Below are positions 1-64,000 of a DNA stretch of 64,000 nt, in pieces. Source of the stretch: Pontibacter kalidii (GTDB lineage Bacteria > Bacteroidota > Bacteroidia > Cytophagales > Hymenobacteraceae); the NCBI RefSeq assembly GCF_026278245.1, contig NZ_CP111079.1, positions 4,917,020 to 4,981,019 on the forward strand, read 5' to 3'. Numbering within the stretch: position 1 is the first letter of the stretch; each line of letters opens with the position of its first letter. The notes below the pieces were generated by a model, which saw nothing but the letters and a program-made list of their open reading frames with translations, was not told where the DNA came from and made no database searches. Both the position numbers and the translations under genes were made by a program.

Positions 1-1
1 A

Positions 2-127
2 CTCTACTGCCGCCCCTGCGGCCTGCACGGCTACAAGGCCTGCCCGCAAGGCCATTTTAAGTGCGCCCGCGAGATCCGGAATGAGCAGCTGCTGGAGGTG
101 TTGAGAGTTAGAGAGTTTAGGAGTTAG
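2..127 (+). CDS. C-terminal end of a family 9 glycosyltransferase (heptosyltransferase-like), cut by the window edge
   Basis: Only the last 41 codons are inside the window. They read through a cysteine-rich tail (YCRPCGLHGYKACPQGHFKC) that closely resembles the end of the complete family 9 glycosyltransferase at 11058-12044, which has the same CxxC...C...GHFKC spacing. By family such enzymes add heptose or related sugars to lipopolysaccharide core in the cytoplasm. The last dozen residues are encoded by a low-complexity GTTAGAGAG-like tract, so the C-terminus probably runs into repeat DNA past the conserved end. The assignment rests only on this tail. Confidence 0.7.
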   Translation, partial: LYCRPCGLHGYKACPQGHFKCAREIRNEQLLEVLRVREFRS

Positions 128-142
128 AGGGTTTGGGAGTGG
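107..142. repeat. Low-complexity GTTAGAGAGTT tract
   Basis: An irregular run of units like GTTAGAGAG and TTTAGGAGTTAGAG overlaps the end of the glycosyltransferase fragment. Similar tracts occur at 5735-5815, 7836-7881, 32879-32915 and 54702-54724, each next to a gene end or in a short spacer. Confidence 0.6.
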
Positions 143-309
143 GAATAATACAATGCTTTGCGTTTAAGTAGCCAGGACTCTCAGTATCAGAGCCCCCTCA
201 TTCGCTCATTCAAAACTCACCCCCGCCACACACTATACTTGCCCCACCTGCAGTTTTATACTATATTAGATGTATAAAGCACCCGCTAAACCCTACAAAA
301 TAAAACTAC

Positions 310-1611
310 ATGAAATACGAGCCAATCGGGCAGGAGCTGTTTATCAATCACCGCCACAACTTCGTCAAGCAGCTCAAGCCTTCGTCCATCGCCATATTTC
401 ACTCCAACGATGTAATGCCCACCAACGCCGACGGCACCATGCCCTTCCGGCAGAACAGCGACCTGTTTTACCTCTCAGGCGTGGACCAGGAGGAAAGTAT
501 ACTTTTGCTCTTCCCCGATAGCAAGGACGAGCGCATGCAGGAGATCCTGTTCATCCGCGAAACCAACGACCATATCCTCACCTGGGAAGGATATAAGCTG
601 ACCAAGGAGCAGGCGCGGGAGACATCGGGTATCCCGACCGTTTACTGGACGCACCAGTTCGAGCAGGTGCTGCACACGCTTATCTACGAGGCCGAACACC
701 TGTATCTGAACACCAACGAGCACCTGCGCGCCGTGGTGGAAGTAGAGACCCGCGACGCCCGCTTCATCAAAAAAGTAAAGGAGCAGTTCCCGCTGCACAA
801 GTATGAACGCAGCGCCCCCATTATGCATCAGCTTCGGGCTATAAAGTCAGTACGGGAGGTGGAGTTGATACAGCAGGCCTGCAACATTACCGACAAAGCT
901 TTCCGCAGGCTGCTGGGCTTTATTAAGCCGGGTGTGATGGAATATGAGATCGAGGCGGAGATATACCACGAGTTCCTGCGCAACCGCTCCAGAGGGCCAG
1001 CCTACGAGCCAATAATTGCCTCCGGCGAGAACGCCTGCATCCTGCACTACACCGACAACAGCCGCGAGTGCAATGACGGCGACCTGGTGCTGATGGACTT
1101 CGGGGCGGAGTACGCCAACTATGCCGCCGACCTGACGCGCACCGTGCCGGTAAACGGCAGGTTCACCAAAAGGCAGCGCGAGGTATACGAGGCGGTGCTG
1201 ACGGTGATGAAAACCGCCATGCACATGCTGGTGCCCGGCAACACCCTGGACCAATACCACAAGTTTGTAGGCACCGTGATGGAGAACGAGCTGATTAAGC
1301 TCGGGCTGCTGAACGAGAGCGACGTGCGCAACCAGGACCCGGAGAGGCCACTGTATAAGAAGTACTTCATGCACGGCACCTCGCACCACCTGGGGCTGGA
1401 CGTGCACGATGTGGCCAATAAGTTTCGCCCCTTTCAGGAGGGTATGGTGTTTACCTGCGAGCCCGGCATCTACATCCGGGAGGAGGGAATAGGCATACGC
1501 CTGGAGAACGATATCCTGGTTACGCACAACGGGCCAAAAGACCTCATGCAGCATATACCCTTGGAGGCAGAGGATATCGAGCGGCTGATGCGGGGTGGGG
1601 CTCAAGACTAA
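310..1611 (+). CDS. pepP: Xaa-Pro aminopeptidase (aminopeptidase P, M24B)
   Basis: A 433-residue cytoplasmic metallopeptidase expected to remove N-terminal residues that precede proline. The N-terminal third (about 1-150) is the creatinase-like AMP_N domain, with the early motif ANADGTMPFRQNSDLFYLSG. The C-terminal pita-bread domain (about 180-415) carries the five dinuclear metal ligands in order: Asp in LMDFGAEY, Asp in ADLTRT, His in HGTSHHLGLDVHD, Glu in TCEPGIYI and Glu in IRLENDILV. Length matches the family. No signal peptide is visible. It stands alone, with about 180 bp before it and 370 bp after it. Confidence 0.93.
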   Translation: MKYEPIGQELFINHRHNFVKQLKPSSIAIFHSNDVMPTNADGTMPFRQNSDLFYLSGVDQEESILLLFPDSKDERMQEILFIRETNDHILTWEGYKLTKEQARETSGIPTVYWTHQFEQVLHTLIYEAEHLYLNTNEHLRAVVEVETRDARFIKKVKEQFPLHKYERSAPIMHQLRAIKSVREVELIQQACNITDKAFRRLLGFIKPGVMEYEIEAEIYHEFLRNRSRGPAYEPIIASGENACILHYTDNSRECNDGDLVLMDFGAEYANYAADLTRTVPVNGRFTKRQREVYEAVLTVMKTAMHMLVPGNTLDQYHKFVGTVMENELIKLGLLNESDVRNQDPERPLYKKYFMHGTSHHLGLDVHDVANKFRPFQEGMVFTCEPGIYIREEGIGIRLENDILVTHNGPKDLMQHIPLEAEDIERLMRGGAQD

Positions 1612-1982
1612 GACGTACGGATAGCTTAAGGGAGAAAAGTGGAAGCTGACGGCCTTTTTTGCTGTACTTACTCTATATTTTTGGCCCTTGAGTCAAAAAA
1701 AAATCAACTGTACAACCTTGCGGGTTGGTTTCAGTTTGAAGTATAGAAATGCGTACTGTCCAGTCCACGATGCCAGAAACCTGTGCAATTTAGATGGTGG
1801 TGTACAGTGGGTTATGTTCAACCCGGATAAATGAGAGCCTATGGGCGAACATTTACTTTTCCTGAAAAAGCATGTCAGACGGCTGCCTCAACTAGGGGCG
1901 GTGGGCAGAAATTTTTCTGCACAAAATAAACTCGTTTCGAAACATGCACGTATTGTCATATCAACATATACTTTGTAGAATC
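1612..1982. other. Intergenic spacer with no recognisable gene
   Basis: About 370 bp separate the aminopeptidase from the OmpA-like gene. The stretch has a nine-A run near 1698 and AAGTATA-type words near 1739 and 1967. I see no good TAnnTTTG box; TATACTTTG at 1967 has one base too many between TA and TTTG. A leader for the abundant outer-membrane protein may lie here, but nothing proves it. Confidence 0.4.
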
Positions 1983-3461
1983 ATGCAAACACATTTATCA
2001 AGATTTAAGAAACTTGCTTTCGCACTCGTGTTCCTGCTTATAGCAGGGCCGGATGTATTTGCGCAAAGCTCTGATCAAAAGACAAACCTGCAAATATACG
2101 GAAGCGCCTTACAGTATAAAGGCGATATCACAGGCGATGATGGCTTTAGCGACCTAGAATGGGGCGGAGGCCTATCGCTGAACCGTTACCTGAGCCCGTC
2201 TTTTGATGCAGGTCTGCACCTGACGTACGGCAGCACCGAGGAGGCTGGTGAAGGCTTGTATAATGGTGGTAAGTTTGATGCACAGATGGGTACCGCGATG
2301 CTGGGCCTGCGCCTTAAAATGTATGGTACCATCCTGAAAGAAGATGCCTTTATTGGTCCATACCTGCAGGTTGCGGGTGGTGGCGCCTGGGCTAAGACCG
2401 ATGCCACTGCTCCGGCTGGCGGTCCTGCCGTTCATAACGACGATAAGTTCTTCACCATGGCTGGCAGAGCCGGTGCGGGTATCCGTTTCCGTTTCTCTGA
2501 TGCCGTTAGTGCCTTTGTGGAGACAAACTACATGATCATCGGCCAGGATAAGATCGACGGCTATGATGTGGGCGATAACGATCAGTTCCTGATGCACAAC
2601 GTAGGCCTTGGCTTTAACCTTGGTAAGGCCAAAGACACTGACGGCGACGGCGTGCCAGACAGACGCGACGACTGCCCTGACACCCCAACTGGTGTGCAGG
2701 TAGACAAGAACGGTTGCCCTATTGACACAGACGGTGACGGTGTACCGGATTACCAGGATGAGTGCCCAAGTGAGGCTGGCGTGGCTAACCTGAATGGTTG
2801 CCCTGACCGCGACGGTGACGGCATTGCAGACAAAAACGACCAGTGCCCTGATGAGGCCGGTACTGCCGCTACAAACGGTTGCCCAGACTCTGACAACGAC
2901 GGCGTTGCCGACGCACAGGATAAGTGCCCTGACACTCCTGCCGGCGTACAGGTTGGCCCAGATGGCTGCCCGGTAGATTCTGACGGTGACGGTGTTCCGG
3001 ATAACGAGGACGCTTGCCCTAACTCAGCAGGTACTGCTGAAACCAAAGGCTGCCCTGAGCTGGATGAGGCTACTAAGAAACTGATCGAAGAGAAAGTACG
3101 CTTCGAGTTCGACAGAGCCAGAGTGCAGGATAGCTACAAGCAGCTGCTCGATAGCATCACCATGGCCCTGCAGAAATACCCAGACCATGTGCTGCTGATC
3201 AAAGGCCATGCGGACCATATCGGTTCTGAGGAGTATAACCAGGCGCTGTCTGAGCGCAGAGCCGAGGCTGTGAAGGAGTATCTGATCCAGCAAGGTGTAC
3301 AGAATCCGGACCGACTGGTAACCAAAGGCTACGGCGAAACACAGCCACTCGTTAAAGTGAACGAGCGTCTGTCTAAGCGCAGAACGGAGAAAGAGCGTGC
3401 CAGAAACAGAAGGGTAGGCTTCGAGATGAACACGCCAGACATGCAATTAGACCTGGAGTAA
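1983..3461 (+). CDS. OmpA family outer-membrane protein with thrombospondin type 3 repeats
   Basis: A signal peptide (LAFALVFLLIAGPDVFAQ) is followed by an outer-membrane beta-barrel-like region to about residue 215. Then come five acidic calcium-binding TSP3 repeats (about 216-358; DTDGDGVPD and DRDGDGIADKND types ending in CP). A C-terminal OmpA peptidoglycan-binding domain follows, with RFEFDRARV, IKGHADHIGSEEYNQALSERRA and a final NRRVGFEM. It should anchor the outer membrane to the cell wall. The ATG at 1983 is preferred because it starts directly before the charged signal-peptide region; the upstream in-frame ATG at 1944 adds 13 atypical residues. A strong terminator follows 16 bp after the stop, so it is monocistronic. 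Confidence 0.92.
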   Translation: MQTHLSRFKKLAFALVFLLIAGPDVFAQSSDQKTNLQIYGSALQYKGDITGDDGFSDLEWGGGLSLNRYLSPSFDAGLHLTYGSTEEAGEGLYNGGKFDAQMGTAMLGLRLKMYGTILKEDAFIGPYLQVAGGGAWAKTDATAPAGGPAVHNDDKFFTMAGRAGAGIRFRFSDAVSAFVETNYMIIGQDKIDGYDVGDNDQFLMHNVGLGFNLGKAKDTDGDGVPDRRDDCPDTPTGVQVDKNGCPIDTDGDGVPDYQDECPSEAGVANLNGCPDRDGDGIADKNDQCPDEAGTAATNGCPDSDNDGVADAQDKCPDTPAGVQVGPDGCPVDSDGDGVPDNEDACPNSAGTAETKGCPELDEATKKLIEEKVRFEFDRARVQDSYKQLLDSITMALQKYPDHVLLIKGHADHIGSEEYNQALSERRAEAVKEYLIQQGVQNPDRLVTKGYGETQPLVKVNERLSKRRTEKERARNRRVGFEMNTPDMQLDLE

Positions 3462-3476
3462 GACAACTGATAAATA

Positions 3477-3520
3477 ACGCAAAAAGCGCCGCAGACGAAA
3501 GCCTGCGGCGCTTTTTGCGT
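3477..3520 (+). terminator. Strong intrinsic terminator after the OmpA-like gene
   Basis: A perfect 18-bp stem (ACGCAAAAAGCGCCGCAG pairing with its complement) encloses an 8-nt loop. The descending arm contains five Ts followed by GCGTTAATT. Confidence 0.85.
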
Positions 3521-3561
3521 TAATTCTAAAGAGATCCCCACCCAAAGGTTGAGATGACAAA

Positions 3562-3733
3562 TAGCAGCGGCTATAGAAATGATACCCAGTCCTTGGGTTA
3601 AGCGCCTATGCGAGTTTTTCCGGTGCCGAACGATAGTGAGGCAGCCCAAGGTACGAGGGCAGGAAAAGCTCCCAGCGCGATGCCCGAGGACGAGCCCTCT
3701 CGGGCTTGAAAGAGCCAAAGTATGAAATGAAAC
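3562..3733 (-). repeat. Mosaic intergenic repeat, copy A core (reverse orientation)
   Basis: On the minus strand this reads GTTTCATTTC, TTTGGCTC, then a GAGAGGGCTCGTC-like block, GGCATCGCGCTG, a variable middle and CCCAAGGACTGGG..TATAGCCGCTGC. The same blocks in the same order occur at 16241-16410, 30086-30290 and 45021-45210. No conserved reading frame is evident. The flank continues into hairpin cassettes that are also shared with copy B. Confidence 0.75.
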
Positions 3734-4140
3734 TATGGGTTTGTGGGAACTAGAGGATCAGCGGTAGCTAGAAAGTATAGCTTGTGTCTAGTGGAAGGAA
3801 GCAGCGGCACATTGAAGGCATAAGCGGACGCTTGCGCCAGCAAAGTATAAAGTATAGCAGCAAGTATAAAAGTATGGCTTATGCGGATTTGGAAATCCGC
3901 ATAAGCTTTGGTTCCGGACAAGGATGTCCGGAACAGCGGGAAGTATAAAGTATAGCCAAAGTTAAAATCCTGCTCAACCCTTCATCCTCAAAATCCTGAT
4001 TCAGACAAGTATAAAAGTATAGCCGAAGCAAGTATGGCTTTTCAAGCCAGTCGGGTCGAAAAGCCAACATCATAGTAGGACACGAGTTGCAAACTCGCGC
4101 CAGCGGGGGAAGGCTTATACTTCTGAAACAGTTATAGAGT
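3734..4140. repeat. AAGTATA-rich spacer with hairpin cassettes (flank of copy A)
   Basis: Non-coding. It holds about seven exact AAGTATA words and several perfect or near-perfect hairpins: GGCATAAGCG/CGCTTGCGCC near 3818-3839, a 14-bp stem with a 2-nt loop at 3877-3906, a 10-bp stem with a 4-nt loop at 3911-3934 (GTTCCGGACA), an 8-bp stem at 4036-4065 (GGCTTTTC) and CGAGTT-gca-AACTCG at 4083-4097. Much of this matches the reverse complement of 16000-16240. I see no gene. Confidence 0.7.
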
Positions 4141-4186
4141 TAAAGTATAAACCCCGCCCTTATGTGAGAGCGGGGTTTATACTTTA
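4141..4186 (-). terminator. Terminator of pyrB with AAGTATA in both arms
   Basis: A 17-bp perfect stem (TAAAGTATAAACCCCGC and complement) with a 12-nt loop lies just past the pyrB stop. The outer stem consists of AAGTATA paired with TATACTT. Confidence 0.75.
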
Positions 4187-4205
4187 AGCATGTCTATACT
4201 TCACA

Positions 4206-5129
4206 TTACCCTTTCTGAGCAAGCAAGTACAGCACGGCCATGCGTACGGCCACGCCGTTCTCCACCTGGTTAAGTATGATGGAGTGGTGCGAGTCGGCGG
4301 CATCGGAGCTGAGTTCTACGCCGCGGTTTATCGGGCCCGGGTGCATCAGCACGATCTCCTTGTTGAGGCTGTCGAGCAGCTTTTTGTCGATACCGTAGTA
4401 TAAAGTATACTCGCGCAGCGAGGGGAAGTACTTCATCTGCTGGCGCTCCAGCTGTATGCGCAGCACGTTGGCCACGTCGCACCACTCCAGCGCCTTGCGC
4501 ACGTTGGTCTCCACCTTCACGCCCAGCTGTTGGATATACTTTGGCAGCAGCGTGATCGGGCCGCATACCATCACCTCGGCGCCCTGCATCTGCAGCGCAA
4601 AAATGTTGGAGAGCGCTACCCGCGAGTGCAGGATGTCGCCGATGATCACCACCTTCTTGCCGGCCACCTCGCCTAAGCGCTCCCGGATGGAGAAAGAATC
4701 CAGCAAAGCCTGGGTGGGGTGCTCGTGGGTGCCGTCGCCGGCGTTCACGATGTTGGCCGGGATGTGCTTGCTCAAAAAGTGCGGTGCCCCGGGGCTGGAG
4801 TGGCGCATCACGATCATGTCCACCTTCATGGCCAGGATGTTGTTCACCGTATCGAGCAGGGTTTCGCCTTTCTTTACGGAGCTGCCGCTGCTGCTGAAGT
4901 TGATCACGTCGGCAGAGAGGCGCTTTTCGGCCAGCTCAAAAGAGAGACGCGTGCGCGTGGAGTTCTCGAAAAATACGTTGGCGATGGTGATGTCGCGCAG
5001 CGAGGGCACTTTCTTAATGGGCCTGTTCAGTACATCCTTAAAATTATCGGCAGTCTCAAAAATGAGCTGGATGTCTTGTGGGGTGATGTCTTTGATACCT
5101 AACAGGTGCCGGACGCTGAGCTCTTGCAT
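4206..5129 (-). CDS. pyrB: Aspartate carbamoyltransferase catalytic subunit
   Basis: A 307-residue cytosolic enzyme that joins carbamoyl phosphate and aspartate, the first committed step of pyrimidine synthesis. The carbamoyl-phosphate motif FFENSTRTRLSFE, the SSVKKGETLLDT loop, the MRHSSPGAPHFL segment, GDGTHEHPTQALLD and LMHPGPINRGVE are all present. The start at 5129 (MQELSVRHLLGI) fits the family; the upstream extension would run through the 3' end of pyrR. The pyrR stop lies 14 bp upstream, so the two are co-transcribed. A terminator follows. Confidence 0.95.
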   Translation of the reverse strand: MQELSVRHLLGIKDITPQDIQLIFETADNFKDVLNRPIKKVPSLRDITIANVFFENSTRTRLSFELAEKRLSADVINFSSSGSSVKKGETLLDTVNNILAMKVDMIVMRHSSPGAPHFLSKHIPANIVNAGDGTHEHPTQALLDSFSIRERLGEVAGKKVVIIGDILHSRVALSNIFALQMQGAEVMVCGPITLLPKYIQQLGVKVETNVRKALEWCDVANVLRIQLERQQMKYFPSLREYTLYYGIDKKLLDSLNKEIVLMHPGPINRGVELSSDAADSHHSIILNQVENGVAVRMAVLYLLAQKG

Positions 5130-5143
5130 GTATGAGTAAGTGT

Positions 5144-5692
5144 TTATTCGTCGGTTTTGGTAATTAGCCAGATGGCGTCTTCTTCGGCCTGCTGCCCCTT
5201 CCACTCCACCAGCACCCGCTGGCTCAGCAGCGAGTTCACCTTGCGGCCCACGTACGTTGGCTGAATGGGCAGGTGGCGCGTGTAGAGGCGATCTATAAGC
5301 ACCAGCAGCTCCACGCTGGCCGGGCGGCCGTAGGCAATCATCGCGTCCAGAGCGGCGCGCACCGAGCGGCCGGTGTAGAGCACGTCATCCACCAAAATCA
5401 CGTTTTTGCCCTCCACCAAAAAATCAATCTTGGTGGCGTTGGCCGTGATGGGCGTGTCGCGTCGGCGGAAGTCGTCGCGGTGAAAGGTGGTGTCCAGAAG
5501 GCCGATAGGAACTTGCTTGCCAAGTATACTGCTTAGGGTGCTCTGGATGCGCTGCGCCACATACTTGCCGCGCGGCTGCAGGCCCAGGATCACAGAATCA
5601 GAAAAGTCGCCATGGTTCTCAATGAGCTGGTGGCACAGGCGCATCACCATGATATCGAGCAGTTGGTGGTTTACGATGAGTCTTTTCTGCAT
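5144..5692 (-). CDS. pyrR: PyrR bifunctional pyrimidine regulator / uracil phosphoribosyltransferase
   Basis: A 182-residue type I phosphoribosyltransferase with the PRPP-binding motif VILVDDVLYTGRSVRAAL and the early segment VILGLQPRGKYVAQRI. By family it binds pyr mRNA or acts as a uracil phosphoribosyltransferase. The start at 5692 (MQKRLIVNHQ) matches homologues; an in-frame ATG seven codons earlier is possible. It precedes pyrB directly, as in classical pyr operons. I did not find an anti-antiterminator leader, and the upstream 115 bp is mostly low-complexity repeat. Confidence 0.93.
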   Translation of the reverse strand: MQKRLIVNHQLLDIMVMRLCHQLIENHGDFSDSVILGLQPRGKYVAQRIQSTLSSILGKQVPIGLLDTTFHRDDFRRRDTPITANATKIDFLVEGKNVILVDDVLYTGRSVRAALDAMIAYGRPASVELLVLIDRLYTRHLPIQPTYVGRKVNSLLSQRVLVEWKGQQAEEDAIWLITKTDE

Positions 5693-5734
5693 AGCCGGGA
5701 TAATTGAATGCAAATATAGAAAGGATTGGGGGAG

Positions 5735-5815
5735 TTGGAAAGGTAGAGAGTTAAAGAGTAAAAAAAGTTAGAGAGTTGGGGAGTTAAAGCGTTAGGGCGT
5801 TAGAAAGTTAAAACG
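5735..5815. repeat. Low-complexity GTTAGAGAG/GTTAAAG tract
   Basis: About 80 bp of imperfect units such as GTAGAGAGTTAAAGAGT, GTTAGAGAGTTGGGGAGTT and GTTAGGGCGTTAGAAAGTT fills the gap between pyrR and the next gene. It reaches the stop codon of that minus-strand gene. Confidence 0.7.
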
Positions 5816-7307: not shown

Positions 7308-7342
7308 GGGGTTAATACTATCCGGTGAGGGAAAAGTATAAA

Positions 7343-7381
7343 AATAGCAGCTATTTCATTTTACTGTAAATAGCTGCTATT
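7343..7381 (-). terminator. Terminator after the EVE-domain gene
   Basis: A 14-bp perfect stem (AATAGCAGCTATTT and complement) with an 11-nt loop is followed on the minus strand by TTTTATACTTTTCC. It lies just past the minus-strand EVE gene. Confidence 0.65.
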
Positions 7382-7409
7382 CGTTGTTCTATGCCTTGGT
7401 TTTTGCGGC

Positions 7410-7820
7410 TTAGTTGCCCAGTGCCAGCAGCACGTCGAACTCCTCGGCCTTTAGCGGCATAACCGAGAGGCGCGACTGGCGCAGCAACGCGATGTCCTGC
7501 AGGCGCTCGTCTTTTTTGATCTGCTCCAGAGTAACGGGGTCCTTAAAGTCGCGGAAGGGTACCAGGTCTACCACCACCCACTTGCCTTTGTCGTCTTTGG
7601 CAGTTGGGTCCGGGTAAGCGGCTTTATCCACTTTGGCAATGCCCACGATGGCCTTCTCGGAAACGCTGTGGTAGAACAGCACGAGATCACCGGGTTGCAT
7701 TTGCTGCATGTTGTTACGGGCCTGGTAATTGCGAACGCCGTCCCACATGGTGCGCCCCTCTTGCACAAACTTTGCCCAGGAATAGGTTTCAGGTTCTGAT
7801 TTTACTAACCAGTGTTGCAT
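7410..7820 (-). CDS. EVE domain-containing protein
   Basis: A complete 136-residue EVE domain (PUA-like fold). Family hallmarks are the start HWLVKSEPETYSW, WDGVRNYQARN, MQPGDLVLFYHS and IVGIAKVDKAAYPDPTA. EVE proteins are thought to read modified bases in nucleic acids; the ligand cannot be told from sequence. Length is typical of the stand-alone family. The upstream spacer (7836-7881) is a GTTAGAGAG tract and a terminator follows, so it is probably transcribed alone. Confidence 0.92.
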   Translation of the reverse strand: MQHWLVKSEPETYSWAKFVQEGRTMWDGVRNYQARNNMQQMQPGDLVLFYHSVSEKAIVGIAKVDKAAYPDPTAKDDKGKWVVVDLVPFRDFKDPVTLEQIKKDERLQDIALLRQSRLSVMPLKAEEFDVLLALGN

Positions 7821-9220: not shown

Positions 9221-10924
9221 TTGGAAAACAAGAAGATCATAAAACAGTTTAAGCTGGCAGCCGAGCTCATGGAGCTCCACGACGAGAATCCGTTCAAGAT
9301 TCGCTCCTACACCAACGCGGTGGGGGCGCTGGAACTGGTGGAGGAACCGCTGGAAACGCTGGCGCAGGCGCAGCTAGAAAGTATACAGGGCGTTGGCAAG
9401 GGCATCGCGGCCAAGATTGTGGAGATAAACGAGAAAGGCACCTTTGCCGAGCTCGACCAGATGCTGCAGGTAACGCCGCCGGGCGTGGTGGAGATGCTGC
9501 GCATCAAAGGCATCGGCCCGAAGAAAGTGCGTAACCTCTGGAAAGAGCTGGGTGCCGAAACGGTGGAGGAGCTGCTGGAGGCCTGCGAACTGGACAAGGT
9601 GAGCAAGCTAAAAGGCTTCGGCGCTAAAACGCAGGAGAACATCAAGCAGGCGCTGCTCTTTACCCAGCAGAATCGGGGCAAATTATTGTACGCCGAGGCC
9701 GAGCTAGTGGCCGAGCAGCTATTGCAAAGTATAAAAAATGCCGTGCCGGAGGCGCAGGTAGAGCTGGCAGGAGAAATGCGCCGCCGCATGGAGATCATCA
9801 CCGTGCTGCAGTTTATACTTGCCACTGATGCCCCGGCGCAGGCACATGAGGCACTGCAAGGTATAACGGAGCTGCAGGAAGACCAGAAAAACTCCGGCCC
9901 CTTTGCCTGGCGCGGTGCACTGGCCGAAAGCGGCATGCCGGTGGAGGTGAAGCTGGTGCCGGAAGAGCGTTTTGCCAATGAACTGCTGCTGACTTCTTCG
10001 AGCGTGGAGCACCTGGCGCAGCTGTTTACGGGCAGCACCAACCTGCTGACAGTGGTGCGCGAGCAGGGCTATGCCTCGGAAGCGGATATTTATAAATCGG
10101 CAGGTATGGCTTACGTAGCGCCGGAATTGCGCGAAGGCACGAACGAGCTGGAACTGGCGCTGCAAAACAAGCTGCCCCAGCTGCTGGAGCTCTCCGACCT
10201 CAAGGGCATCCTGCACAACCACAGCACTTACTCCGATGGCGCCCATACCCTGGAGCAGATGGCCACCTACTGCCGCGACATGGGCTACGAGTACCTGGGC
10301 ATTTCGGACCACAGCAAGACAGCCGCTTACGCCGGTGGCCTGCGCGAGGGCGATGTGCTGCGCCAGCAAAAGGAGATCGACGAGCTGAACAAGAAACTGG
10401 CCCCGTTCAGGATCTTCAAAGGTATTGAGTCGGATATCCTGGGCGACGGCTCGCTGGACTACGACGCGGACATCCTCAAGACGTTTGACTTTATCGTGGC
10501 CAGCATCCACAGCACCCTGAACATGGATGAGCAACGGGCTACGGCGCGTTTGATCACAGCCATCGAAAACCCTTATACCACCATGCTGGGCCACCCCACC
10601 GGCCGCCTGCTGCTGCGCCGTGAAGGCTACCCGATCAACCACAAAATGGTGATCGACGCCTGCGCGGCCAACAACGTGATCATCGAGATAAACTCCAACC
10701 CGTGGCGCTTAGATCTAGACTGGCGCTACGTGCAGTATGCGCTGGAACGCGGCGTGATGCTAAGTATAAATCCCGACGCCCACCACACCAGCGGCTACGA
10801 CGACATGAAGTATGGCGTGCTGGTTGGCCGGAAAGGTGGCCTGACGAAAGAGATGACCTTCAACGCCAAGCCATTGGAGGAAGTGGAAAAGCATTTCAGG
10901 GAGCGGAAGGAGAAGATAAAGTAG
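9221..10924 (+). CDS. PolX-like protein with degenerate polymerase palm and intact PHP domain
   Basis: 567 residues. The N-terminus (ELMELHDENPFKIRSYTNAV and two helix-hairpin-helix segments, IQGVGKGIAAKIVEI and IKGIGPKKVRNLW) is of family X DNA polymerase type. In the palm (about 180-200) the usual AGSxRR...ETxxDxD pattern is replaced by AGEMRRRMEIITVLQF, so the catalytic aspartates are missing. The C-terminal PHP domain (about 327-567) keeps its metal ligands: HNHSTYSDG, GISDHSKT, GIESD, SIHS, GHPTGR and NPDAHHT. It is therefore more likely a nuclease or phosphoesterase than a polymerase. The start is TTG: an in-frame stop lies eight codons upstream with no ATG between, and this start gives the family N-terminus. 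Confidence 0.85.
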   Translation: MENKKIIKQFKLAAELMELHDENPFKIRSYTNAVGALELVEEPLETLAQAQLESIQGVGKGIAAKIVEINEKGTFAELDQMLQVTPPGVVEMLRIKGIGPKKVRNLWKELGAETVEELLEACELDKVSKLKGFGAKTQENIKQALLFTQQNRGKLLYAEAELVAEQLLQSIKNAVPEAQVELAGEMRRRMEIITVLQFILATDAPAQAHEALQGITELQEDQKNSGPFAWRGALAESGMPVEVKLVPEERFANELLLTSSSVEHLAQLFTGSTNLLTVVREQGYASEADIYKSAGMAYVAPELREGTNELELALQNKLPQLLELSDLKGILHNHSTYSDGAHTLEQMATYCRDMGYEYLGISDHSKTAAYAGGLREGDVLRQQKEIDELNKKLAPFRIFKGIESDILGDGSLDYDADILKTFDFIVASIHSTLNMDEQRATARLITAIENPYTTMLGHPTGRLLLRREGYPINHKMVIDACAANNVIIEINSNPWRLDLDWRYVQYALERGVMLSINPDAHHTSGYDDMKYGVLVGRKGGLTKEMTFNAKPLEEVEKHFRERKEKIK

Positions 10925-11057: not shown

Positions 11058-12044
11058 ATGCCAAAAATCCTCATACTACGTTTTTCCTCCATTGGCGATA
11101 TCGTGCTCACCACGCCTGTTATCCGCTGCATCAAGCAGCAGGTGCCGGGGGCGGAGGTGCATTATGTCACCAAAAAAGCCTTCCAAAGTATACTTGCTAA
11201 CAACCCGTACGTGGACAAAGTGCATGTGCTGGGCGAGAAGTTGGGCGACCTGGTGCAGGAGCTGAAAGCCGAGAACTTCGACTATGTGGTAGATTTGCAC
11301 AACAATCTGCGCACGCGCATTATCAAAACAAGACTAGGCAAGCCAAACCGCAGCTTCAACAAGCTTAACTACGAGAAGTGGCTGATGGTGAACTTCAAAC
11401 TAAACCGCCTACCTGACGTGCACATTGTGCAACGCTATTTAGATGCTGCCGCTGCGCTGGGTGTGAAAGACGACGGCGGTGGCCTGGACTACTTTATACC
11501 TGCCCCGGATGAGGTGGATGTCCATACCTTGCCGGAAGGATTTCAGAACGGCTACGTAGCCTTTGCCATTGGGGCGCAGCACTACACCAAGCGCCTGCCC
11601 ACGGAGCGTATCATAGAGCTGTGCGACCGCCTGCAGCAGCCGGTTATACTTTTGGGAGGTAAGGAGGATGCCGCCACCGGCGAAGAAATCGCTGCGCACT
11701 TCCACAATCGATCAACGAACAACAAGCAACGGACAACGATCTTCAACGCCTGCGGCAAGTATAACCTGAACGGCTCGGCCTCGTTGGTGAGGCAAGCGGA
11801 GAAAGTGGTAAGCCACGATACAGGCCTGATGCACATTGCGGCAGCTTTCCGGAAAGAGATTATCAGTGTGTGGGGCAATACCATTCCGGAGTTTGGCATG
11901 TACCCCTTCCGGACCAGGTATAAAGTGCTGGAAGTGCACGGCCTCAGTTGTCGCCCTTGCTCCAAAATCGGCTACAGCAAGTGCCCCAAAGGCCATTTTA
12001 AATGCATGCGGGATATATCGTTTGAGGATCTGAAAATCAGTTAA
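11058..12044 (+). CDS. Family 9 glycosyltransferase (ADP-heptose:LPS heptosyltransferase-like)
   Basis: 328 residues from the ATG at 11058. The N-terminus ILILRFSSIGDIVLTTPVIR is the classic heptosyltransferase Rossmann start. The C-terminal half has AFAIGAQHYTKRLP, VILLGGKED and the acceptor-side HDTGLMHIAAAF, then WGNTIPEFGMYP. A cysteine cluster ends the protein (SCRPCSKIGYSKCPKGHFKC), as in the fragment at window position 2-127. It should act on the cytoplasmic face of the inner membrane on LPS core or a related glycan. An ATG 12 codons earlier lies inside hairpin repeat DNA and was not chosen. A 135-residue gene follows after 15 bp. Confidence 0.9.
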   Translation: MPKILILRFSSIGDIVLTTPVIRCIKQQVPGAEVHYVTKKAFQSILANNPYVDKVHVLGEKLGDLVQELKAENFDYVVDLHNNLRTRIIKTRLGKPNRSFNKLNYEKWLMVNFKLNRLPDVHIVQRYLDAAAALGVKDDGGGLDYFIPAPDEVDVHTLPEGFQNGYVAFAIGAQHYTKRLPTERIIELCDRLQQPVILLGGKEDAATGEEIAAHFHNRSTNNKQRTTIFNACGKYNLNGSASLVRQAEKVVSHDTGLMHIAAAFRKEIISVWGNTIPEFGMYPFRTRYKVLEVHGLSCRPCSKIGYSKCPKGHFKCMRDISFEDLKIS

Positions 12045-12059: not shown

Positions 12060-12467
12060 ATGCCTAAATATAACTTAACCTGGCAGGGAACGGATGTGCA
12101 ATTGCTGGAGGCGCTGCTTCTGGCATCCGGTGAAGAAAGTGGTGCGCCGCTGCCTGAAGTTCTGCTCATGGCCGACGCCCTGGACGGTACCGTGCTCTCA
12201 CAGAAAGAAGTGGAGCAGGGGCTGGAGAAACTGATGTCGGTGGGCTACGTGGCGATACAGAAGAACAAGCTGCTGCTAACTCCCGCCTTTCTGCATGACT
12301 ATGAAAGTATAGACGGTACTGAGGATGAGCAGCAGGCGCTGGTGCAGTTGCTGCAAACCAAAGAGCTCAAGGCCGAGAACTTCGACGAGCCCAAAATCCT
12401 GATCAAGAAGTATAAACTCAAAAATCAGTACCAGGCTTACCTGGAGCAGTTCGGAGGGGAAGAGTAG
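12060..12467 (+). CDS. Conserved-looking small cytoplasmic protein, possible winged helix
   Basis: A 135-residue acidic protein, not recognised. The order (LLEALLLAS...PLPEVLLMADALDG..LSQKEVEQGLEKLMSVGYVAIQKNKLLLT) would fit a small winged-helix domain: helices, then a beta-hairpin around GYVAIQKNKLLLT. The C-terminus is helical and charged. It starts 15 bp after the glycosyltransferase and is followed by a terminator, so the two are probably co-transcribed. Function unknown. Confidence 0.65.
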   Translation: MPKYNLTWQGTDVQLLEALLLASGEESGAPLPEVLLMADALDGTVLSQKEVEQGLEKLMSVGYVAIQKNKLLLTPAFLHDYESIDGTEDEQQALVQLLQTKELKAENFDEPKILIKKYKLKNQYQAYLEQFGGEE

Positions 12468-16004: not shown

Positions 16005-16240
16005 ATGCTATTTCTGGCGCAAGCGTCCGCTTGTGCCTTTACTTAATTTATGGTGCAAGTCTTAAGACTTGTATCCTACCATGGCGTCGGGTCTGTGACT
16101 CGACTGGCTTCAAAAGCCATACTTTATACTTACTGCTATACTTTATACTTGCCAGCTTATACTTTCCTAGCCGCTGCTTCCTGTTTTTGACACAAGCTAT
16201 ACTTTCTAGCGTCCGTTCATCCTCTAGACTTACAAGCCTA
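16005..16240. repeat. Hairpin-cassette flank of repeat copy B
   Basis: Non-coding and rich in TATACTT. Its reverse complement matches 3765-4100 in pieces. Hairpins include GGCGCAAGCG/CGCTTGTGCC near 16017-16038, the 16-bp palindrome CAAGTCTTAAGACTTG at 16056-16071, GTCGGGT..ACTCGAC near 16086 and TGGCTT-caa-AAGCCA at 16105-16119. Confidence 0.65.
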
Positions 16241-38544: not shown

Positions 38545-40173
38545 ATGGATATCGAATTCAACAAAAACGAGGACGCACTGAAGCAGCTGGTCTTCCAGCT
38601 GAATAGTAGACTGAAGAAAGTACACCTGGGCGGTGGTGAGAAGCGCATCGAGAAGGAGCACCAAAAAGGCAAAATGACGGCCCGCGAGCGTATAGACTAC
38701 CTGCTGGATGAAGGCAGCGAGTTCCTGGAGATCGGGGCTTTTGCCGGAGACGGCATGTATGAGGAGGTGGGTGGCTGCCCGAGCGGCGGCGTGGTTACCG
38801 GCATTGGCTACATTAAGGGCCGCCAGTGCGTGGTGGTGGCCAACGATGCCACCGTAAAAGCGGGGGCCTGGTTCCCGATTACGGCCAAGAAGAACCTGCG
38901 CGCCCAGGAAATCTCCATTGAGAACAAACTGCCCATCGTTTACCTGGTGGATAGCGCCGGCGTGTTTCTGCCGATGCAGGATGAGATCTTCCCGGATAAG
39001 GAGCACTTTGGCCGCATTTTCCGCAATAACGCCGTGATGAGCTCAATGGGCATCGTGCAGATTGCCGCCATTATGGGCAGCTGTGTGGCAGGAGGCGCTT
39101 ACCTGCCTATCATGAGCGACGAGGCCCTGATTGTGGAGGGCACCGGGTCGGTTTTCCTGGCCGGATCATACTTAGTGAAGTCCGCTATCGGCGAAAGTAT
39201 AGACAACGAAACGCTGGGTGGCGCGACCACGCACTCGGAGATATCAGGCGTTACCGACTACAAGTGCAAAGACGACCAGGAGGCGCTGGACCATATCCGC
39301 AACATTTTTGACAAGATGGGCGACAAGCCGGTGGCCGGCTTCAGCCGCGTGGCGCCTGCCGCGCCAAGGCTGGATGAGAAAGAGATCTACGGGCTGCTGC
39401 CATCCGACCGCGTGAAGCCTTACGACATGATGGACATCATCCTGCGCCTGGTGGATAACTCGGAGTTTGAGCCCTACAAAGAGCTTTACGGGCAGACGCT
39501 GATCTGTGGATTGGCCCGCATAGACGGCTGGGCCGTGGGCATTGTGGCCAACCAGCGCAAGATCGTGAAGAGCAAGAAAGGCGAGATGCAGATGGGCGGC
39601 GTTATCTACTCCGACTCTGCTGACAAGGCCGCGCGCTTTATCATGAACTGCAACCAAAAGAAGATACCGCTGGTGTTTCTGCAGGACGTGTCTGGTTTTA
39701 TGGTAGGCAGCAAGTCGGAGCACGGCGGCATTATCAAAGACGGAGCCAAAATGGTGAGCGCCATGGCCAACTCGGTGGTGCCGAAGTTTACGATCCTGAT
39801 TGGCAACAGCTACGGGGCCGGCAACTACGCCATGTGCGGCAAGGCCTATGACCCGCGCCTGATCTACTCCTGGCCAACGGCGCAGCTAGCCGTGATGAGT
39901 GGTGCCGCAGCGGCCAACACGCTGCTGCAGATAGAGGTCTCGTCTAAGAAGGCGAAGGGGGAGGAGGTAAGCCCGGAGGCGGAGAAGGAGCTGCTGGAGC
40001 GCATCACCAACAAGTATAACGAGGAGCTCTCACCCTACTATTCCGCTGCCCGCCTGTGGATAGACGGCATCATCGACCCGCTGGAGACGCGCAAGGTCAT
40101 CTCGATGGGCATCGAGGCGGCTAACCATGCGCCTATCGAAAAGCCCTACAACGTGGGCGTGATCCAAACCTGA
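38545..40173 (+). CDS. Propionyl/methylmalonyl-CoA carboxylase beta (carboxyltransferase) subunit
   Basis: 542 residues with two crotonase-like carboxyltransferase halves. Features: RIEKEHQKGKMTARERIDYLLD, GIGYIKGRQCVVVANDATVKAGAWFP, ENKLPIVYLVDSAGVFLPMQ and MGSCVAGGAYLPIMSDEALIVEGTGS in the first half. The second half has AVGIVANQRKIVK, IPLVFLQDVSGFMVG and GNSYGAGNYAMCGKAYDPRLIYSWPTAQLAVMSG. It carboxylates an acyl-CoA, most likely propionyl-CoA, with a biotinylated alpha subunit not in this window. With MeaB and the mutase it fits the methylmalonyl-CoA route. A methylcrotonyl-CoA role is the alternative. Confidence 0.9.
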   Translation: MDIEFNKNEDALKQLVFQLNSRLKKVHLGGGEKRIEKEHQKGKMTARERIDYLLDEGSEFLEIGAFAGDGMYEEVGGCPSGGVVTGIGYIKGRQCVVVANDATVKAGAWFPITAKKNLRAQEISIENKLPIVYLVDSAGVFLPMQDEIFPDKEHFGRIFRNNAVMSSMGIVQIAAIMGSCVAGGAYLPIMSDEALIVEGTGSVFLAGSYLVKSAIGESIDNETLGGATTHSEISGVTDYKCKDDQEALDHIRNIFDKMGDKPVAGFSRVAPAAPRLDEKEIYGLLPSDRVKPYDMMDIILRLVDNSEFEPYKELYGQTLICGLARIDGWAVGIVANQRKIVKSKKGEMQMGGVIYSDSADKAARFIMNCNQKKIPLVFLQDVSGFMVGSKSEHGGIIKDGAKMVSAMANSVVPKFTILIGNSYGAGNYAMCGKAYDPRLIYSWPTAQLAVMSGAAAANTLLQIEVSSKKAKGEEVSPEAEKELLERITNKYNEELSPYYSAARLWIDGIIDPLETRKVISMGIEAANHAPIEKPYNVGVIQT

Positions 40174-42566: not shown

Positions 42567-43487
42567 ATGGCAAGCAAAGTACAAGTTGAGAAGGTGGCAA
42601 CCCTGACCGGGCACCGCGACAGTGTGTATACATTGGTGCAGGCAGCGGAGGAGCATCTGTTCTTCTCGGCCGCCGGCGATGGCATGGTGGTGGCCTGGAA
42701 CATGCAGGCGCCCGACACCGGAGACCTGGTGGCGCGGGTAAACGCATCTGTGTACGCGCTGTGCTACCTGCCGGAGCGCCACCTGCTGCTCATCGGGCAG
42801 AACCGGGAGGGTGTGCAGGTGATCGACCTAGAGAGCAAGCAAATACTGAAGTCGGTGCCGCTGCCCAAGGTGCCCATTTTCGATATACTTCATACTTCGG
42901 AGGCGGGCAAAATATTTGCAAGTATGGGCAGCGGGGGCGTGGCGGTGCTGGATGCGGAGACGTTCGAGCTGCAGACCATCATCCGGAAAGCCGACAAAAG
43001 CGCGCGCAGCCTGGCCTACAACAAGTATAGCCATGAGCTGGCCGTGGGCTATAGCGACCATAAGATCCGTATTTTCGACGCTGAAAATATGGAACTGAAG
43101 TATGAGCTGACCGCGCATACCAACTCCGTGTTTACAGTGGCCTACTCGCCCGACGGCAAGCTGCTTTTGAGCGGTGGCCGCGATGCGCACCTGCGGGTGT
43201 GGGAAGTAGAGCAGCATTATACCGAGCGGGGATACCTGATCGCGCACATGTACACCATCAACCACATTACCTACAGCCCGGGCGGCGAGTATTTTGCCAC
43301 CTGCAGCATGGATAAATCCATAAAACTGTGGGACGCGCAAACCTTTAAGTTGCTGAAAGTGATTGATAAAGTGCGTCATGCGAGCCACGGCACCTCGGTA
43401 AATAAATTATTTTGGTCGGCTCACCAGAATCAGTTAGTTTCGTGTAGCGATGACCGCACCATTTCGGTTTGGGATATAAATTTTTGA
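42567..43487 (+). CDS. WD40 repeat protein
   Basis: 306 residues forming a probable seven-bladed propeller. Repeats are visible as VATLTGHRDSVYTLVQ..FFSAAGDGMVVAWNM, ELTAHTNSVFTVAYSPDGKLLLSGGRDAHLRVWEV, MYTINHITYSPGGEYFATCSMDKSIKLWDAQ and SAHQNQLVSCSDDRTISVWDINF. There is no signal peptide, so it is cytoplasmic. It is the first gene of an operon with a DivIVA-domain gene (3 bp away) and folB. WD40 propellers usually bind protein partners; the operon suggests a link to DivIVA-type polar or division scaffolds. Confidence 0.9.
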   Translation: MASKVQVEKVATLTGHRDSVYTLVQAAEEHLFFSAAGDGMVVAWNMQAPDTGDLVARVNASVYALCYLPERHLLLIGQNREGVQVIDLESKQILKSVPLPKVPIFDILHTSEAGKIFASMGSGGVAVLDAETFELQTIIRKADKSARSLAYNKYSHELAVGYSDHKIRIFDAENMELKYELTAHTNSVFTVAYSPDGKLLLSGGRDAHLRVWEVEQHYTERGYLIAHMYTINHITYSPGGEYFATCSMDKSIKLWDAQTFKLLKVIDKVRHASHGTSVNKLFWSAHQNQLVSCSDDRTISVWDINF

Positions 43488-62189: not shown

Positions 62190-62945
62190 ATGAACAACCA
62201 CTTTTCCAAAATCCTGGCTGTGTTGGCCCTCTCGTTGAGTGTGGCCGGCTGCCAGCGCGCTTGGGTAGCCTCGCCCTCGCTGGCCGAAACCGATGTGCCT
62301 GTAGACCAAAACATTGCTCCGGACCCGCAAATGGAGGCGCAGATTGCCCCTTATCGCGAAGAGGTTGTCAATAAGATGTCTGAAGTAGTGGGCACGGCGC
62401 CCGTAGCTTTAAGTAAAGGAGAGTATGAGTCGCCGCTGGGCAACTTTGTGGTGGACCTGCAGCTGGAGCAGGCGGCCCCGCTGTACAAAAAGCCCATCGA
62501 CCTGTCCCTGACAACCAACGGTGGCCTGCGCGTGCCGCTGCCGGAGGGAAAGATCACCACGGGCCATGTGTTTGAACTGATGCCCTTCGAGAATGAGCTG
62601 GTGGTGCTGACGCTGAGAGGGGAGACGGTGAAACAGCTGTTCGACTACGCCGCTGAACGCAAAAATGCCCCCATCGGCAACGCGACCTATACCGTGCAAA
62701 ACGGTAAGGCCACGGACATCAAAATCAACGAGAAGCCCTTAGACCCGAACCGGACTTATACCTTGGTGACCTCTGATTACCTGGCCGGCGGCGGCGATAA
62801 CCTGAACATGCTGAAAGAGGCGGTGCAAACCGAAAAGTTGGGCCTGCTGCTGCGCGAGGCCATCCTGCAGCAGATACGCCAACTCACAGCGACCGGAAAA
62901 CCGGTGACAGCCGAAACAGGCAAGCGTGTCACCATCCTCCCTTAA
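62190..62945 (+). CDS. Lipoprotein with 5'-nucleotidase C-terminal domain
   Basis: 251 residues from MNNHFSKILAVLALSLSVAGC, with lipobox LSVAGC. The rest is a UshA-type substrate-binding domain (SPLGNFVVDLQLEQA; LTTNGGLRVPLPEGKITTGHVFELMPFENELVVLTLRGETVKQLFDYAAE; LVTSDYLAGGGDNLNM). Classical UshA has this domain C-terminal to the metallophosphoesterase in one chain; here it is a separate lipoprotein encoded first. The catalytic part follows after 15 bp. The longer frame upstream is rejected because it crosses the promoter. Confidence 0.9.
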   Translation: MNNHFSKILAVLALSLSVAGCQRAWVASPSLAETDVPVDQNIAPDPQMEAQIAPYREEVVNKMSEVVGTAPVALSKGEYESPLGNFVVDLQLEQAAPLYKKPIDLSLTTNGGLRVPLPEGKITTGHVFELMPFENELVVLTLRGETVKQLFDYAAERKNAPIGNATYTVQNGKATDIKINEKPLDPNRTYTLVTSDYLAGGGDNLNMLKEAVQTEKLGLLLREAILQQIRQLTATGKPVTAETGKRVTILP

Positions 62946-62960
62946 AGTATACTTTAGAAG

Positions 62961-63893
62961 ATGAGAAGAAGAGACTTTCTTAAAACCACAGCAGTAGGGG
63001 CGGCTGGTGTCAGTCTGCTGGGCATTCCCTTCCAGGCCGAGGCGGCGCAACGTATAAACTTCACCATCCTGCACACCAATGACCAGCACTCGCGCATCGA
63101 CCCCTTCCCGGACGACGGCAGAAAGTATGGCGGCATGGGCGGTATGGCCCGCCGCGCTACGTTGATAGAGCAGATCCGCAAAGAGGAGCCCAACGTACTG
63201 CTCTTCGACAGCGGCGATATTTGGCAGGGCACGCCCTACTTTAACTTCTTTGGCGGAGAGCTGGAGTACAAACTGATGAGCCAGCTGAAGTACGACGCGG
63301 CCACGCTGGGTAACCACGACTTCGACAACGGCCTGAAGGGGCTGGAGAAAATGCTGCCGCACGCCCGGTTCCCGTTCCTGAGCGCCAACTACGACTTCAG
63401 CAAAACCATCCTCAAAAACCGGTTCGCGCCCTACAAGGTGTTCGAGAAGCAAAGTATAAAAATAGGCGTGTTTGGGCTGGGCATCGAGTTGGCAGGGCTG
63501 GTGAGCCAGAACAACTACGGCGAAACAGTATACCTGGACCCGCTGGCCACGGCCCGCGAAATGGTACAGGAACTGCGCCAGAACCAGGGGTGTAACCTGG
63601 TGGTGTGCCTTTCCCACCTGGGTTACAAATATGACGATGGCAAGATCGACGACGTAACACTGGCCCGGCAGGTGGAAGGCATCGACCTGATCCTGGGCGG
63701 CCACACCCATACGTTCCTGGACCAGCCGGAAGTAGTGCGGCACGCCTCCGGCCACGAAACACTTGTGAATCAGGTGGGTTGGTCGGGGATTTTCCTGGGG
63801 CGCCTGGATTTTAGTTTCAGCAAAAAAACAAGGCAAAAAACCGACGTAAGAACAGCCGTCTTGCCCGTGGACAGACCTGTAACAACTTCGTGA
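62961..63893 (+). CDS. Tat-exported metallophosphoesterase (5'-nucleotidase N-terminal domain)
   Basis: 310 residues. The twin-arginine start RRRDFLKTTAVGAAGVSLL predicts Tat export of a folded metalloprotein. Metal ligands in order: ILHTNDQHSRIDPF, LLFDSGDIWQGTPYF, TLGNHDFDNG, VVCLSHLGYK and ILGGHTHTFL. It should cleave nucleotide phosphates in the periplasm with the preceding lipoprotein providing substrate specificity. It is co-transcribed (15 bp gap). It ends before a strong promoter for a gene beyond the window. Confidence 0.92.
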   Translation: MRRRDFLKTTAVGAAGVSLLGIPFQAEAAQRINFTILHTNDQHSRIDPFPDDGRKYGGMGGMARRATLIEQIRKEEPNVLLFDSGDIWQGTPYFNFFGGELEYKLMSQLKYDAATLGNHDFDNGLKGLEKMLPHARFPFLSANYDFSKTILKNRFAPYKVFEKQSIKIGVFGLGIELAGLVSQNNYGETVYLDPLATAREMVQELRQNQGCNLVVCLSHLGYKYDDGKIDDVTLARQVEGIDLILGGHTHTFLDQPEVVRHASGHETLVNQVGWSGIFLGRLDFSFSKKTRQKTDVRTAVLPVDRPVTTS

Positions 63894-63958
63894 AAAAATA
63901 ATTTTTTGTTTACGGATTATTGATCAAATTTGTAACCCCCTGCCAATCAAAGGAGCCA

Positions 63959-63991
63959 TTTGTTACACCAAGCATATCTTATGTAGTTTTG
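63959..63991 (+). promoter_or_regulatory. Promoter (TTTG-N21-TAGTTTTG) for a gene beyond the window
   Basis: TTTG at 63959-63962 and TAGTTTTG at 63984-63991 match the Bacteroidota consensus, pointing out of the window. Confidence 0.6.
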
Positions 63992-64000
63992 GAAAATTGG

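Follow-up and report, generated by a model that had tools for sequence, protein, structure and literature searches.

AAGTATA, an abundant chromosomal word with lineage-specific dialects in Pontibacter, and its possible role in the recognition of self DNA

Pasteurellaceae genomes carry a self word, the USS, that is distributed genome-wide, is presumed to reflect uptake bias and is associated with pilus-dependent uptake; Chi sequences are another kind of word, one that varies between lineages. In Neisseriaceae, the portion of the literature drawn upon here describes DUS dialects that share a fixed core (CTG), are congruent with phylogeny, include a genome bearing two dialects and limit the exchange of genes (PMC3630211). 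Here we describe a word, AAGTATA (complement TATACTT), that pervades the chromosome of Pontibacter kalidii and is spelled differently among its congeners. Measured against that partial account of the DUS, the resemblances comprise thousands of copies, enrichment in spacers, phylogeny-congruent dialects, a fixed core (here TATA) and genomes with two dialects (PMC3630211). The Pontibacter word differs in having 7-8 bases, the DUS being longer, in belonging to the phylum Bacteroidota and in the lack of a credible pilus ATPase; with the USS it shares the character of a genome-wide self word, and differs in sequence and length. The likeness to the DUS is drawn from sequence alone, and transformation of the Neisseria type is a candidate here. 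Among the literature matches listed, none reported a Pontibacter word, uptake sequence or competence.

The window analysed, a 64,000-nucleotide stretch of this chromosome (1..64000), holds 146 exact copies of AAGTATA/TATACTT (79 on the plus and 67 on the minus strand) spread throughout its length, whereas 100 dinucleotide-preserving shuffles gave a mean of 4.7 (sd 2.1, largest 12); under a second-order Markov model no other 7-mer of the window is in such excess (146 versus 8.9). An earlier note on this DNA had counted about 30 copies by hand in positions 1-10000, where we find 34, and had called the excess on both strands extreme, which if anything understated it: the genome of 5,054,860 bp contains 8,861 copies (4,451 forward and 4,410 reverse, or 1.75 per kb), compared with 356 of the reversed-word control. 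Because base preferences fade within 1-3 bases on either side of the word, AAGTATA is no repeat family; its flanks are diverse, and the genome-wide count is neither near Markov expectation nor attributable to a few repeats. The seventh base may also be G (AAGTATG, 335 versus 62 expected), and the window contains 196 copies of AAGTATR (A or G at the end). By crude gene calls, 67 of the AAGTATA copies in the window are wholly intergenic and 75 wholly coding. A palindromic form, AAGTATACTT, in which plus and minus copies are offset by 3, occurs 164 times in the genome versus once for its reversed control, and in the window at 495..504, 11186-11195, 19943-19952, 52865-52874, 53088-53097 and 62945-62954.

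Words are clumped (variance/mean per kb of 1.51 versus 1.26 simulated) and not evenly spaced, a pattern that was looked for. The densest cluster in the window, 16 AAGTATR at 3718..4278, lies mostly in the spacer between an OmpA-domain gene and a convergent gene of the aspartate/ornithine carbamoyltransferase family; some of its words stand head to tail at 7-8 bp spacing. One clear terminator-like hairpin (4140..4187), with a perfect 18-bp stem formed by 4140-4157 and 4170-4187, bears one word per arm (4143-4149 on the plus strand, 4178-4184 on the minus). Smaller clusters comprise six AAGTATR at 16118..16204, downstream of the Rho gene and including five AAGTATA, all on the minus strand, and five AAGTATR at 42884..43104, within a WD40-repeat gene (42567-43487). 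Spacers between convergent genes are the richest in words (7.7 per kb, versus 4.2 in divergent and 3.6 in co-directional spacers), yet same-orientation pairs dominate: in a 444-kb sample of this genome, neighbours within 200 bp share orientation in 291 cases and oppose one another in 179, unlike the inverted pairs at Neisseria terminators. Same-orientation arrays show spacing peaks at 6-7 bp, with no helical periodicity obvious by eye. A phage match, sought for 20 kb of the window, was not found.

Strand preferences are slight, both along the replichores (406 AAGTATA on the G-rich strand versus 349 on the other, p=.04) and within genes (sense:antisense 233:188). A signal acting at the RNA level is rejected, since neither genes nor spacers consistently favour the sense orientation; co-directional spacers of the clade that spells the word AGGTATA have 10 sense versus 47 antisense copies, and the low p values in some pooled-locus tests come from pools in which the same spacer is repeated many times and whose directions conflict between groups. 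Two plasmids are poor in the word: that of P. kalidii (73.8 kb) has 20 copies versus 125.6 at the chromosomal rate, and a 200-kb plasmid of P. actiniarum has 80, the benchmark here being the P. kalidii chromosome and not its own.

Codon phases and ATA usage were counted in the 444-kb sample with crude gene calls. Its 421 coding copies use six codon phases, Lys-Tyr being the commonest with 103, of which codon usage alone accounts for 28; Ser-Ile has 80. The earlier note had read the word in genes as often Ser-Ile, held in place at the expense of a rare Ile codon. Its five named examples are present on the plus strand in the A-AGT-ATA phase: 9379..9385 and 10762..10768 in a PolX-like gene (9221-10924); 11186..11192 in a glycosyltransferase family 9 gene (11022-12044), as the left half of a palindromic site; 12305..12311 in an ORF (12060-12467); and 39195..39201 in a carboxyl transferase gene (38545-40173). 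The generalization holds only in part, given the 80 of 421 and the six phases in use, and the codon is not rare: among 6,872 Ile codons 1,424 are ATA, of which just 158 lie within a word. Synonymous codon shuffles yield 9.8 coding words for the window, where 75 are observed, and codon usage predicts 53 where 413 are observed; these controls, with the ATA frequency, rule out an account based on codon bias or rare codons. Protein-compatible sites are filled with AAGTATA at a frequency of.27 in this genome, versus.035 expected, and own-word occupancy reaches.39,.47 and.57 at loci of the A1, G and C dialects, respectively; elsewhere it is near expectation (39 versus 30.8 in word-poor Pontibacter, 17 versus 21.9 in other genera).

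Across 50 Pontibacter genomes, four spellings occur in the frame A-NN-TATA: AAGTATA (23 of 50), AGGTATA (12), AACTATA (6) and ATATATA, with two genomes carrying both AAGTATA and AACTATA. The first three were called when the word was at least 8-fold over its reversed form, a threshold of our own setting. The ATATATA dialect is confined to one genome, with 6,778 copies versus 358-1,304 in the other 49. Forty of the 50 genomes have some dialect; the ten without a strong one are word-poor genomes, in which a weak extra dialect is possible, the stretches read closely in word-poor genomes covering 40-120 kb each (about 13-22 kb for four named species). On a tree built from the PolX gene alone, with 38 rows and without the ATATATA genome, the AGGTATA species form a single clade (support 100/99), as do the AACTATA and mixed species together (100/100), so that on this tree the dialects are congruent with phylogeny around the fixed core TATA. 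The ancestral NN was probably AG. Other words were seen elsewhere in Bacteroidota, AGGCRAG at a locus of a metagenome-assembled genome (L046) and CCCTAGGG in another genus of the same family.

Aligned orthologous sites reveal how the word is kept and changed. Within a dialect it is retained 1.6-2 times as often as letter-permuted control words (.593 vs.306,.706 vs.353 and.677 vs.413). Aligned AAGTATA sites read AGGTATA in the AGGTATA clade at a frequency of.284 (control.036), and the G3>C change in the AACTATA clade reaches.083 (control.000); word-poor species also lie weakly above control (A2>G.052 vs.023; G3>C.020 vs.003). Respelling mostly tracks its cost to the protein, with frequencies of.50 for Lys>Arg,.59 for NAA>NAG,.69 for TTN>CTN and.32 for Ser>Gly, while Leu>Pro is not seen once in 867 aligned pairs (24 sites). 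Two classes fit poorly: of 233 pairs in the synonymous ACT>ACC phase (11 sites) only 7.7% had switched, and of 153 pairs at intergenic aligned sites (7 sites) none had. An origin of AAGTATA by insertion or from a mobile element is ruled out by a gap rate against word-poor species (.074) indistinguishable from control (.073) and by the absence of a common flank beyond 1-3 bases. For AACTATA an insertion origin is less clearly rejected, the gap rate against AAGTATA species being.157 versus.075 in the control. AAGTATA is created through point substitution, and a lineage's change of dialect brought the respelling of many sites that it shares with others. The suggestion that the DNA word is preserved for its own sake is strongly supported by its retention at orthologous sites, the coordinated change of dialect, the synonymous shuffles and the slightness of strand and sense bias: what is maintained is the DNA sequence, whichever strand it lies on, and it fills a large fraction of the sites that proteins allow.

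The word looks like a mark by which the cell could tell its own from foreign DNA. We propose, at a probability of roughly 0.4, that AAGTATA is the P. kalidii spelling of a genus-wide chromosomal signal, A-NN-TATA with lineage-specific NN (AG, GG, AC or TA), by which self DNA is recognised, probably for uptake. A sequence-specific reader would exist, its specificity having changed at least twice; less certainly, it would recognise self DNA in natural transformation, word-bearing DNA being preferentially taken up and recombined. Uptake bias and recombination would push words into positions of low harm and would explain the respelling, the erosion in word-poor species and the poverty of plasmids. 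Of the analogies offered by the earlier note, that with uptake sequences is the best on account of the dialects, which its author was in no position to see, and it is incomplete in its machinery. A type IV pilus/T2S ATPase found no credible match with the PF00437 profile in the 50 genomes: all have weak matches, exceeding the cut-off in three by 1 bit or less, and the best cover about 45-65 of 370 profile positions within an ORF of about 640-700 aa. ComEC is present in all 50, word-poor species included (two with an in-frame stop), and so is ruled out as a discriminating gene. The absence of an identified receptor, the presence of ComEC in word-poor species and the lack of a credible pilus ATPase count against uptake, and clumping is not predicted if one word per fragment suffices. 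The receptor would need to be independent of the type IV pilus, which is possible because a screen in Riemerella anatipestifer, also of the Bacteroidota, includes competence proteins beyond the known machinery, according to the part of that report used here (PMC8459023). The domain DUF5689, which a transformation protein of Riemerella contains, occurs in 22 of 50 genomes, is absent from that of P. kalidii and is ruled out as the reader, its presence not tracking the word; of three matches inspected among the 22, two were nuclease-domain proteins with a Por tail and the third lay in a SusCD operon. No reader protein was found among the families searched (PF00437, ComEC, DUF5689, PF01555, PF07669 and PF12705). 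A wider and more doubtful extension is a self-DNA code of Bacteroidota, in which the A..TATA frame would stay constant and the exchangeable dinucleotide would identify the lineage, like a password. Its receptor would be of an undescribed kind that does not belong to the pilus families, and other lineages would have words of their own.

An unlikely alternative is that an enzyme of modification or repair reads the word and biases mismatch repair or short-patch conversion, dialects marking changes in its specificity. The material consulted on HIP1 and other cyanobacterial iterated palindromes describes short words that occur roughly once per kb, besides alternative words and relatives poor in them, all paralleled here, and Elhai 2015 puts forward mismatch repair directed by methylation (PMC4390886); the density resembles that of HIP1, and the clumping of words and their dense occupancy of eligible sites look as though each site were acted upon independently. 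The likeness, also raised by the earlier note, fails on palindromy, AAGTATA being asymmetric where HIP1 is a palindromic octamer and HIPs are palindromes tied to methyltransferases (PMC4390886, same material). Neither methyltransferase family searched tracks the dialect classes: N6_N4_Mtase (PF01555) is found in 31 of 50 genomes and a dialect in 13 of the 19 that lack this family, while Eco57I (PF07669) is found in 47 of 50 with very uneven match strength. The poverty of two plasmids also speaks against it.

Less likely again is a Chi-like site, at which the single-stranded word would govern a helicase-nuclease of the AddAB/RecBCD type and label DNA as self while breaks are repaired. Like Chi it is short, asymmetric, over-represented and lineage-specific, and 1.75 per kb would suit such a mark; a PDDEXK_1 (PF12705) protein, predicted to represent an enzyme of this type, is encoded in all 50 genomes by an ORF of about 970-1,015 aa in most. 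That gene, however, is equally present in word-poor species, and unlike Chi the word has no strong strand bias, is densest in convergent spacers and occupies many of the eligible genic sites.

We consider improbable, and below both of these, a binding site for a protein of the nucleoid or of chromosome architecture, with each copy under its own selection. Near-symmetric strands, spacer enrichment and the same-orientation arrays with their 6-7 bp peaks would accord with it, but respelling thousands of sites singly would require selection at each, ten of 50 genomes live without a strong dialect, and a helical period is not apparent. An account by biased codons or composition, or by dispersed repeats, can practically be dismissed: it covers part of the Lys-Tyr words, and is contradicted by both codon controls, the enriched spacers, the diverse flanks and the dialect respelling.

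The pressure that maintains the word is strong, since each lineage's own word occupies 27-57% of protein-allowed sites and the respelling in part entails Ser>Gly replacements. If recognition of self DNA is indeed its role, the set of four spellings in one genus, the two-dialect genomes and the respelling at orthologous codons would offer a clean system for the study of change in a recognition code, and a handle on the specificity of DNA uptake and recombination in Bacteroidota.

The heptamer AAGTATA (TATACTT on the complementary strand), claimed in an earlier note to be over-represented on both strands, is indeed in large excess: both strands of the window hold 146 copies, against a mean of 4.7 and a maximum of 12 in 100 dinucleotide-preserving shuffles, and the 5,054,860-bp P. 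kalidii genome holds 8,861 (4,451 forward, 4,410 reverse), against 356 copies of the reversed word. The proposed count of 7-mers against a Markov model, run on the window with a second-order model, ranked AAGTATA first, and words containing it headed the 8-, 9- and 10-mer rankings. G is tolerated as the seventh base (AAGTATG, 335 versus 62 expected), while counts of the remaining 20 single-base variants are 0.6-2.7 times a Markov expectation that AAGTATA itself inflates. The eighth base is A in 59% of copies and T in 4%; comparison of the flanks of AAGTATA copies revealed no longer common flank.

Orthologues of the window's PolX-like gene defined 48 loci, 36 of them from Pontibacter, which assigns the window to that genus. 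Under class labels of our own, based on top-ranking 7-mers, these 36, mostly of ~21 kb, comprise 15 with AAGTATA, 12 with AGGTATA, three with AACTATA, two mixed (AAGTATA and AACTATA) and four without a dialect (P. ummariensis, P. pamirensis, P. silvestris and P. beigongshangensis). Whole-genome counts for 50 genomes of the genus agree with the locus classes: at a threshold of our choosing, at least 8-fold over the reversed word, AAGTATA qualified in 23, AGGTATA in 12 and AACTATA in six, G018 and G033 being entered twice for their two dialect words each. AACTATA reached 7.3-fold in G058, and G002 carries 6,778 copies of ATATATA, for which the reversed word is no useful control, versus 358-1,304 in the remaining 49 genomes. 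Dialects are carried by 40 of the 50; the ten without are G013, G028, G069, G071, G080, G084, G085, G086, G089 and G093, with below-threshold signals in G089 (AGGTATA, 5.7-fold) and G071 (AAGTATA, 4.0-fold).

All four words share the frame A-NN-TATA. Of its 16 possible spellings, the one proper to a dialect lineage is enriched there ~12- to 34-fold relative to dinucleotide expectation (two in mixed species), the others remaining mostly below 5-fold (maximum 7.2); on small counts, the spellings range from 0 to 5.4 times expectation in word-poor Pontibacter and from 0 to 4.6 in other genera and outgroups. In a search of 60 family genomes, the longer word AAGTATAAAC exceeded 130 copies per strand in 10 of 15 from the genus and reached at most 28 in the 45 from other genera. 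G084 (L103, L110-L113), which lacks an A-NN-TATA dialect, shows moderate enrichment of AGGTAGA and GAGTTAGA-type words, which could represent a further dialect. Elsewhere, a 19,655-bp locus of the Bacteroidetes MAG PH2015_13D_43_10 (L046) contains 48 copies of AGGCAAG, where 6.3 are expected, and 20 of AGGCGAG, distributed along its whole length, possibly an independent genome-wide word of another Bacteroidota lineage. A HIP-like palindrome, CCCTAGGG, occupies 18 places in 20 kb (z ~33) of L059, from another genus of the family, and ACCTAGGG is enriched in L054 (genome G004).

In a tree of the single gene PolX (38 rows), the AGGTATA species form one clade (support 100/99), as do AACTATA and mixed species (100/100), with word-poor species weakly placed. 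The AAGTATA species fall into a clade with 12 members (98/98) and a further four placed close to the AGGTATA species, a pattern that makes AAGTATA the plausible ancestral word and the remaining dialects derived.

Conservation at aligned sites of related genomes, a check suggested earlier, favours the word: across PolX loci AAGTATA is kept between AAGTATA species at.593 of sites, versus.306 for same-letter words, as are AGGTATA (.706 versus.353) and AACTATA (.677 versus.413) within their own dialects, although aligned pairs are non-independent, the same sites recurring in many species. Against AGGTATA species, AAGTATA retention drops to.107, below the control (.148), and.284 of sites read AGGTATA, versus.036 for the same change in control words; in word-poor species this A2>G change stands at.052 versus.023. 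G3>C occurs at.083 versus.000 in the AACTATA clade and at.020 versus.003 in word-poor species. Respelling is frequent in codon phases in which it leaves the protein unchanged or alters it mildly, namely Lys>Arg (.50, 10 sites), NAA>NAG (.59, five sites) and TTN>CTN (.69, eight sites); it also occurs at Ser>Gly (.32, 13 sites), with none at Leu>Pro (0/867 pairs, 24 sites); in reverse, Arg>Lys reaches.93 at three sites and Pro>Leu 0/227 pairs at six. Counting against so simple a reading, the share of pairs that switched in the synonymous ACT>ACC phase was just.077 (11 sites), and none of seven aligned intergenic sites switched. Amino-acid identity to the AGGTATA clade is.726 at word codons and.819 at others (control words,.784 and.819). 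The gap rate at AAGTATA against word-poor species equals that of controls, and AAGTATA words therefore arise by substitution; gaps at AACTATA exceed control.

Within genes, a 444-kb P. kalidii sample carries the word at 413 of 1,525 protein-compatible sites (413 of 1,523 under slightly different gene calls), versus 53 expected from codon usage, and at 103 of 154 in the Lys-Tyr phase; here and in the pools below, the word may itself have recruited some of the residues that make a site compatible. From crude ORF calls on pooled loci that contain homologous genes, AGGTATA and AACTATA loci carry their own words at 339 of 727 and 143 of 249 compatible sites. Foreign dialect words lie at.2-3.0 of expectation, the highest being AAGTATA in the AACTATA pool, which contains the mixed species L018; AAGTATA is near expectation in word-poor Pontibacter (39 versus 30.8) and other genera (17 versus 21.9). 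We regard a sequence-specific, genome-wide pressure with dialects as demonstrated.

Under the crude gene calls of the 444 kb, words number 7.7 per kb in convergent spacers, 4.2 in divergent and 3.6 in co-directional, with slight biases in coding orientation (233 sense, 188 antisense; p=.03) and strand (G-rich 406, other 349; p=.04). They are clumped beyond a coding/spacer-stratified simulation; neighbours within 200 bp, palindromes omitted, comprise 291 pairs in the same and 179 in opposite orientation. Neighbour distances in the window and sample loci L067-L085 peak at 6-7 bp, facing pairs exceeding divergent ones. Two word-free ~6-kb chromosomal stretches (L079:11010-17110, L071:8377-14425) are perhaps recently acquired DNA. 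The P. kalidii plasmid carries 20 copies in 73,841 bp, versus 125.6 at the chromosomal rate and its own expectations of 14.0 (second-order) and 7.9 (dinucleotides). A 200-kb stretch of a P. actiniarum plasmid has 80, ~4.4 times dinucleotide expectation, and is therefore not free of the word.

Among candidate readers, ComEC and PDDEXK_1 families occur in all 50 genus genomes, PF07669 in 47 (match strength uneven), PF01555 in 31 and DUF5689 in 22, and T2SSE/PilB gave only short partial matches; across these genomes, none of the six follows the word. Two dialect carriers each have a single in-frame stop within their ComEC-family match (G046:C76:160505-161305, G074:C1:2771217-2771876). L158:7829-11638 encodes a protein of 1,269 aa, probably an exported nuclease, that combines lamin-tail, DUF5689, Exo_endo_phos and Por sorting domains. 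As described in PMC8459023, competence of the phylum member Riemerella anatipestifer requires ComEC, DprA, ComF and RecA, together with four proteins that have no known counterparts in the machineries described so far; two of the four are predicted to be fimbrial or outer-membrane proteins. It is therefore possible that a receptor independent of pili operates here.

Architectural binding, a Chi-like function and repair-driven conversion predict much of what DNA uptake does and are possible alternatives; we place the probability that the word serves uptake at 0.4. Clumping and high occupancy would better fit uptake acting on short fragments, or additively over words. A putative reader that would favour word-bearing chromosomal DNA, with recombination spreading the words, best accounts for the coordinated respelling of shared sites in two derived lineages, the absence of dialects from some species and the scarcity of the word on plasmids; uptake-sequence dialects follow the same logic (PMC3630211).
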